From Antennarius striatus (Eukaryota; Chordata; Actinopteri; Lophiiformes; Antennariidae): a stretch of DNA of 64,000 bases. Each line of letters begins with the position of its first letter. The stretch's first letter is position 1. Below are positions 32,901 through 35,900 of this stretch, in pieces. Under the pieces are notes generated by a model that did no database searches, was not told where the DNA came from, and saw only the letters and a list, made by a program, of their open reading frames with translations. The position numbers and the translations under genes were made by a program. The stretch lies in NCBI RefSeq assembly GCF_040054535.1, contig NC_090784.1:15057001-15121000 (forward strand), in the 5' to 3' direction.

Positions 32901-35900
32901 GTTTTTTTCACTCTTGATATTTCTGTTTAGCTAGACTGTAATATTTCACAGCTCTGAGTGAGTTCTCTTTTATAGTACATTTGTTTTTTTCTGAATGGCC
33001 GTCTTCCTTAGTTGCTTAATTGTATCTTGAATAACCATTGGTCACAAATTTAAGGGCCACAATACATTTCATTACTCTTTTCACATCTAGATTATTATGT
33101 TACTTCCCCTAGACTGTAGCTGTAACACCAGCTAACAACCAAATAACTTATTGTGCCTTTCTTTCAAGTATACTTAACTCGAAACAGTAATTTTTCACTC
33201 GTCCCGGAATGTAAAGTATTTGTTATGTACTGTAGATTTTCTGTGTGGCTATAAAAGGTTGCTCTGTGTTTTAAACAATCAGGGAATAATGCATAAAATG
33301 TTGTGTGGTGTTATTTTATTTCATGTTTATCTTAAAATCAGAATATTTTCAAAATACATAGATTACACAATGATAGGCTTCTCATTTCGTTCTTTAAACT
33401 AGTGTCCATTATATGAACATCGGTGGACAACACAATTTATCTTATTATTGTTAACAATATCAGTTTGCAGAAGACAAGTATCTGAAGTAATTTTTAAAAA
33501 ATGTCCCCTGATTTCATCCTCTTTATGCCCAAATCAATATCACAAAGCCCCTGACGGCCACCTTAAGTGCAGAATAAAGCTATTAAATATCTGTATTTTC
33601 TTCACATTGTCTCTCAGGTCAGACGACCTGGTTTGTTTATGAAAGTCCTCGATGTTTCTGGGATTATGTGAAAGCTGCCTGCAGCAAGGTCCCTCACAAC
33701 TGCATTCGAAGCATCCAAAGTATGGAAAATGTGCGATCATCAAGAGCTAAGGTGAGGATGAAACTAAATTAAATTGCAAAAGATTGAAAGATGTAAGAAA
33801 TATAAGTTTTATATGCGCTATATATTTTTGTGTTTTGAGTTTACTTTGCATTATCTTGAATGCACCCTGATGTCTCTGTTAGATGAATTTCCAGTCTTCC
33901 ACATGTGATTGTTTCCGTTTCCGTCCGGTCATATGAATGACCGGTCAGTGCTGCTGCTTTGTGTCTCTGCAGGGCAGGGCGTGGATCAGAGTTGTCCTGA
34001 TGGAGAAAAGATTATCAGAATACATCTCATCTGCACTGAGGGACGTCAGAACAACCAGGTCTTCACTGGTACACCCACACTGACTAGTTACACACAGTTT
34101 TCCCTTCAATCCAGTTAAAATCATCCAGTAAATTATAGTTAGGAAGGGTTGCTCTCCATCATCAGTGCTGCAGGATAACCAGCCACACTGATCGGTTGTT
34201 ACATTTTTCATCTGCAGTACTTGCAGCTACTTTTTTCTTTTACTCCCACTCAGTGGATGAGATCGAGCTCTATTGGAGTGTGAGTTGAATTAATAATAAC
34301 ACATTTGCTTGATTATAGAAAGTTTTACGATGATGGAGCGATCATGCTGGGAGAGGAGGCAGGCCTGCTGGCGGACACACTCATTGGACTCAACACCATT
34401 GATCTCAGGTAGTGATCTTTTTTTTACAATACATCACCGCTTCAAAGCGGTGATGTATTGTAATTGTCAGTGTTTGTGTGTTCACAAACACTGACAATTA
34501 CAATACACTATAATCGTGGACTAAGGTTCGTTAGTCCACCAATTATCTTTGATCTTGAGAAAACTAGATCAAGGTCAAATTTCAACTTTTGTACGCTCAG
34601 GAACCTGACAAGATAGAAAGACGAGGGAGAAGGCCAGTGTGACTAAGACCATAGATCAAAGCCACTGCTTTGATCAATGACAGTAGGTCAGAGCACTAGC
34701 TTTGATCTTTGACCTATGCAAGCAGGTCAGGGTAAAATTTCTAATTCAGGGGTGTCGCGGGATGTTGCAGTCTCTGACTGCATTGGTTGTTGTTTTAATT
34801 AGTTAATATTGAAGTGTTAGAAAGAAAGAAGCTACAGATTTTTGACTGTCACATCCTTGGAGAAATTTGCATATAAATATATATTTATATTATGTGTTTT
34901 AGACATCAGTTAAGTAAACTGAGATTGTCTGTGTGTGTAGTCAGTAATTGTAATATAAATATAGCAGTACAACTTCTGGTGAATCAGTTGTGACGAATCT
35001 TGCACCATGACAACACACACAAAATTTATTGAAACGGACAGACTGGGGGAACAATACAGGAGTAGTTTCACAGCTGTAAATCTGGTAAAAGATGAGGCAT
35101 GGCATTGATTTTCTATCCTGTCTTCTCTCTTCAGCTTCTGTTTGAAAGGAGAGGGTGTGGACGGCAGCTGCCCTGCTGTCATCGACTACACGCCTTACCT
35201 GAAGTTCACTCAGAGGTACACGAGAACTAAAGTCCCCATCACCCTCAGCAAAAAACAATTTTCAGATTTGATTTTGAGGCTGACTATTTTTGTGTTAATA
35301 TTTGGCACATGCTGGTTTCCTGTGCAGTGCAGACAGCATCAGCAGTGATGAAGAGGAGATGAGGACCATGGGGAGCAGTGGTAGTGAGGACAACACCCCT
35401 GACAAAGTCGCCACAGCTGCCTCCATCTTCACTGAGCAGAGTAACTTGTTTAGCAAGTGCAAACGATTTGAGCAAAAGTATCGCATGGCGATTGAGCAGA
35501 AGGTAGCATTTGTGTTTGTGCATGTATTTATTTTGGATAAATAAATCATACGAAGTGATACTAATGTGACATTTCCATTTGATGCCTGACAAGGAGGAAA
35601 TATTTTTTTTGGTAGTTCTTACCTGAACAACATCTGTAATGTTTCTAATCTCTTCACTTCACCTGCTGCCTGGTTATTTGATTTGTTTTGAGCCAAACAA
35701 AGAATTCACACATGTGAACGGATGTGGCCTCAAGGTGGTAAACAAACAAATGGAAACCAGTTTCTGTACTTGTGCGTGTTTGTCACAGGGATACCTGGAA
35801 GAGCTGGTGCGTCTCCGAGAAGCCCAGCTGTCAGAGGCTGTGTCTCATAACAAAGCTTTACAGCAGAGCCTAGCAAACACACACCTCACCCACACACTGG

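Follow-up and report, generated by a model that had tools for sequence, protein, structure and literature searches.

Two overlapping perfect hairpins in a rearranged copy of a Helentron-like repeat within an intron of Antennarius striatus

The hairpin array and its host intron

The window analysed here, meaning the whole 64-kb stretch of DNA, contains a coding exon of a gene that, judged by its protein, we take to be rundc3b. This exon (34319–34408) and the exon beginning at 35135 join in frame, which agrees with the intronic setting proposed in the sequence-only reading of this DNA. Because the two exons join in this way, the left copy of a 10-nt word X (TTACAATACA) starts at intron base +16, and the element copy described below lies 15 nt inside the intron. 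X is found at 34424 and again at 34498, and X′, its reverse complement, at 34454, exactly as first reported and with no further occurrence in the 64-kb window. The earlier claim of two perfect hairpins was likewise correct: the arms 34424–34442 and 34445–34463 (hairpin 1, 19 bp, 2-nt gap) and the arms 34454–34478 and 34483–34507 (hairpin 2, 25 bp, 4-nt gap) show 100% complementarity. The features of the locus are the following.

34319..34408, + strand: upstream coding exon, its frame kept into the exon starting at 35135
34409..35134, + strand: host intron holding the element copy, with donor GTAGTG at 34409 and an in-frame junction
34424..34794, + strand: non-autonomous repeat of ~0.4 kb, Helentron-like (HINE-type), in one rearranged copy, by consensus alignment
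34424..34442, + strand: left arm of hairpin 1, including the left X (34424–34433); inverted copy of consensus 15–33
34443..34483, + strand: native 5′ part (consensus 14–53), including X′; identical to the consensus and source of both inverted copies
34454..34463, + strand: X′ (TGTATTGTAA), native element sequence and overlap of the two copied tracts
34483..34507, + strand: right arm of hairpin 2, including the right X (34498–34507); inverted consensus 24–48, 25/25
34508..34524, + strand: third, imperfect inverted patch, CTATAATC plus GTGGACTAA; inverse of TTAGTCCAC, consensus 71–79
34526..34549, + strand: native element sequence, consensus 66–89, after which consensus 90–168 (79 bp) is deleted
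34757..34765, + strand: 3′ subterminal inverted repeat GCGGGATGT, inverse of the 5′ ACATCCCGC, which is lost in the window copy
34767..34781, + strand: 3′ terminal stem-loop GCAGTC-TCT-GACTGC, from the sequence and the consensus map

A scan of the window for perfect, non-simple hairpins (arm length at least 11, loop length at most 60) returned 11, among which the 25-bp and the 19-bp hairpins rank second and third, respectively; in 30 Markov-random windows (order 1 for 15 of them, order 3 for the other 15), perfect non-simple arms reached 13 bp at most. The fold of 34410–34520 (111 bases) was compared with shuffles, giving z = -11.0 as RNA of the + strand and, as DNA, z = -11.5 on the + strand and -12.1 on the - strand. 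With RNA parameters, a 330-base stretch was also far more stable than shuffles on both strands. Rfam models gave no match at the hairpin locus at gathering scores, and the sole Rfam match in the window is a tRNA gene at 11137–11208.

Two other inverted structures were observed in the window. Another nested array occupies 2898–2967, where a perfect 27-bp hairpin (2898–2961) overlaps a 15-bp one (2927–2967), and where GTTTGTT can pair with AACAAAC on either side; a genome search with 2850–3030 did not find a second copy of this array. Additionally, 26965–27040 and 27579–27654 form a 76-bp inverted repeat with 93% identity and arms ~540 bp apart.

The repeat family and the order of the window copy

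The segment 34424–34794 is one copy of a high-copy repeat of ~0.4 kb in the 548-Mb source genome. A genome search gave, for 34549–34760, 39 other strong matches among the best 40 of 2,838 candidates, with 91–93% identity over the 3′ part of the query, and 34430–34484 recurs as a second block beside many of the repeat matches listed; these genome searches scored the best candidates only and skipped common words. We fetched 77 other copies and built a family consensus from 38 sequences, the window copy included.

A typical copy starts with TTACATCCCGCTTCAAAGCGGTGATGTATTGTAATTGTCAGTGTTTGTGTGTT, continues into a CGTC-type microsatellite and ends in ...GCGGGATGTTGCAGTCTGTGACTGC(C/A)TTGGTTCTAGTT, some copies having a shorter end form. 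By eye, an array of this type and of variable length follows GTGTGTT in most of the copies listed; it is replaced in the window copy. The 5′ ACATCCCGC of the family, being the inverse of the 3′ GCGGGATGT, makes with it a 9-bp inverted repeat, terminal on the 5′ side and subterminal on the 3′ side. In its normal form the 5′ end folds into an imperfect hairpin (ACATC-CCGCTT / AAGCGGTGATGT), with a single bulge in the consensus TACATCCCGCTTCAAAGCGGTGATGTA. Copies are surrounded by T-rich flanks and carry a stem-loop at the 3′ end. In 27 of 38 loci, ATT or TTT precedes the position of ACATCCCG, and GTT often follows at the right end, which may reflect insertion within TT of the kind known from HINE and DINE-1 elements. 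A 3′ match was obtained for 67 copies, counting that of the window; among these, GCGGGATGT is exact in 23 and inexact in 44, and the 3′ stem-loop GCAGTC/GACTGC is exact in 32 and inexact in 35; the remaining 11 of the 78 copies gave no 3′ match.

An autonomous Rep/helicase/endonuclease partner with ends like those of the family was sought with two protein profiles, and none came to light. PF14214 gave zero matches in the genome, but none for the controls either. PF05970 gave 4, none being tied to the family: three are neighbours on C18, and the fourth, on C14, is a PIF1-helicase-like fragment interrupted by stops that may be a Helitron relic. The 9.9 kb around this C14 piece (L091, C14:6487500-6497400) contain weak pieces and one 29-nt match to the 5′ part of the family, which lies at the very edge of these 9.9 kb and on the opposite strand.

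In consensus coordinates, the window copy consists, in order, of inverted 15–33, native 14–53, inverted 24–48, CTATAATC (eight bases), inverted 71–79, native 66–89 and native 169–414. Its left edge falls at 34424 with the first inverted patch included and at 34430 without it; 34430–34483 is 98% identical to consensus 1–53, with one gap, and 34549–34794 is 93.9% identical to consensus 169–414. The left arm stands where the family has ACATCCCGCTT. Of 38 loci that were picked for the likeness of their 5′ ends and aligned on the core, 31 read ACATCCCG at this site, preceding CTTCAAAGC, and TTACAATACATCACCG occurs in none of them; the closest is L062 (C7), whose 5′ end, TTACAGTACATCCCA, is one letter off the left extension of the window copy over 12 letters, and which may represent either a chance flank or a second extension. 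The right arm occupies the place of the CGTC-type microsatellite. Both copied tracts are exact with respect to the inverted native consensus (left 19/19, right 25/25), and the third patch pairs with 34531–34546 as a third hairpin, with one substitution and one missing base. By this map, X′ is native and both X are inverted copies of it; the pattern described earlier as X-S1-X′-S2-X is the 10-nt overlap of two copied tracts.

A genome search with 34424–34549 (126 bases) scored 228 bits to itself, and the next place, among the best 40 of 1,005, scored 92 bits over query positions 7–61 only. The other matches listed extend over the native part, and in them the left arm aligns to the ordinary end of the family; every other right-arm match among them falls inside a native 5′ segment on the opposite strand. 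The two-hairpin layout was not seen in the 77 other copies scanned for perfect hairpins (78 segments including the window), although some of these (e.g., L009 and L046) have no 5′ end and are therefore unable to show it. A search for other genomic copies had been proposed as a check: the element is high-copy, and the two-hairpin layout is unique as far as searched.

Origin, age and folding of the double hairpin

The array is very probably a mutated copy of a HINE-type transposon, in which template switches inside that one copy made the double hairpin. A non-autonomous Helentron-like element, of a family with an imperfect 5′ terminal hairpin, sits in the intron, and DNA synthesis would have switched template within this copy at least twice (two or three switches). 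One switch would have copied consensus 15–33 back over the left arm, producing a longer, perfect arm with the bulge corrected, and would have rejoined the T-run at TTAC; another would have copied consensus 24–48 into the microsatellite just downstream. The smaller third inverted patch and the 79-bp deletion adjoin the two copied tracts; given the imperfect pairing of that patch, the three may differ in event and in age. Two successive template switches had been suggested from the sequence alone, and the suggestion is supported by the X tracts, which are exact inverted native sequence, and by the absence of the layout from the copies examined. In one report, template switching makes perfect hairpins and repairs stems (PMC8794818). 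With the ancestral state taken from paralogous copies, not from the same locus in relatives, we infer replication template switching as the cause, as well as the order and age of the events and the lack of function.

In its 3′ part, the window copy differs from the consensus at 6.1% of sites. At this divergence, ~5.4 mismatches would be expected in the arms and none was observed (P ~0.005; ~0.07 at half that divergence), the age estimate being rough because divergence from the consensus includes subfamily differences. The native core shows no difference from the consensus, which is likewise the case in only one of 29 other copies compared; local divergence may therefore simply be low. The insertion probably predates the patches, with repeated correction as an alternative. 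As for the initial proposal that perfect arms imply recent origin or maintenance, a recent origin is mildly favoured by the perfect arms and the 3′ divergence, but the clean core tempers this preference.

Perfect palindromes are not confined to the window copy, because other loci carry perfect hairpins. Hairpins of 16–22 bp occur in six of the 77 loci (L049, L064, L067, L069, L074 and L080) and fall, by sequence, in an internal palindrome of the family that is imperfect in the consensus. L012, L015 and L041 have perfect hairpins of 15–17 bp, and L030 has one of 20 bp in its flank. In L058, L059 and L060 the missing A of the bulge is present, and a one-base insertion would also fill the bulge; these three loci (C2, ~4.81 Mb) have near-identical 5′ ends and flanks, lie 7.0–7.5 kb apart and resemble a series of local duplications that took the element along. 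L021 and L028 were considered as similar snap-backs and rejected, since each holds instead a head-to-head pair of oppositely oriented elements, complete or partial; in L028, the plus copy is without consensus 1–108 and abuts the 5′ end of the minus copy. A broader reading, which we hold to be unlikely, is that the quasi-palindromes of the family are template-switch hotspots, repeatedly re-templated into perfect hairpins at the 5′ inverted repeat and the internal palindrome, perhaps via folding, self-priming single-stranded rolling-circle intermediates. If this were true, the family would record hairpin correction while spreading.

The double hairpin could also have arisen during transposition, if the 3′ end of the bottom strand had folded on the 5′ hairpin and been extended by self-priming before insertion. 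The left arm does read as the terminal hairpin of the family extended and with its bulge corrected, and L062 has a nearly matching 5′ extension; nevertheless, the exact extended end is absent from the other copies examined, the internal right arm and the third patch are left unexplained, and the perfect arms look younger, by a rough estimate, than the 6.1% divergence of the copy. We regard this origin as very unlikely.

The two hairpins had been described as mutually exclusive, with the geometry of a bistable RNA switch. In the RNA partition function, the private stems of both hairpins pair together with probability near 1, save for one pair at 0.85 and the innermost at 0, and the shared 10-nt word slides left or right, its pair probabilities varying between 0.03 and 0.96 with the position in the word. 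All 11 registers of X′ lie between -50.3 and -51.1 kcal/mol, within 0.8 kcal/mol. Exclusivity is thus limited to the shared 10 nt, the two hairpins forming together, and the switch was rejected because both hairpins coexist over flat register energies, with no two states. A functional intron switch in which X′ chose the left or the right X would be in keeping with the very stable fold (z ~-11) and with the closeness of the donor GTAGTG, which departs from the usual consensus GTAAGT; it is extremely improbable given the coexistence of the hairpins, the flat sliding of X′ over its registers and a layout found in one mutated transposon copy only. Nothing in the modelled folds suggests that the feature works as a switch, and a putative effect of the hairpins on the nearby donor site is conceivable.

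An assembly or sequencing artefact at the palindrome is very improbable: palindromes are error-prone and the sequence is that of the assembly, but each patch corresponds to a native tract of its own and is sharply bounded, and perfect hairpins of at least 15 bp are found also at other loci.

Relation to known elements and mutations

HINE and DINE-1 elements have a 5′ inverted repeat with a subterminal 3′ copy, a nested short inverted repeat, a microsatellite, a 3′ stem-loop and T-rich ends (PMC4067079). The window family resembles them in its 5′ hairpin nested in an inverted repeat, the subterminal 3′ copy of this repeat, its CGTC-type microsatellite, its 3′ stem-loop and its T-rich ends; its inverted repeat is of 9 bp, compared with the 12–15 bp given there for mite HINEs and 13 bp for DINE-1. 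The exact 3′ motifs are present in only a third to half of the copies. Helitron2 elements have asymmetric terminal inverted repeats, with a 3′ inverted repeat some 20–40 bp from the end and, in some members, hairpins at both termini (PMC5148889). The family is like some of these in its hairpins at both termini and its subterminal 3′ inverted repeat, but differs from the Helitron2 described there in host group, in that no coding capacity was seen in it and in that no Rep/Hel protein is tied to it. Three exact family strings gave no match in the papers searched, a result of little weight because such sequences are seldom printed.

The rearrangement is closest to template-switch mutations in which hairpins are created or made perfect (PMC8794818; PMC7954356), and is like those of PMC8794818 in having an inverted copy beside its source, perfect stems and an imperfect stem corrected. 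It is unlike the cases given there in that two overlapping tracts and a third patch occur in one transposon end, and in that the ancestor comes from paralogues.

The double hairpin is therefore a real feature, ordinary in kind, since its mutation class and its element class are both known, and by itself it changes no view of gene regulation. It provides a worked case of a switch-like hairpin array arising by mutation from a transposon with an existing terminal hairpin, and the many copies of the family in this genome (2,838 first-look candidates) would allow corrections of imperfect palindromes to be counted.
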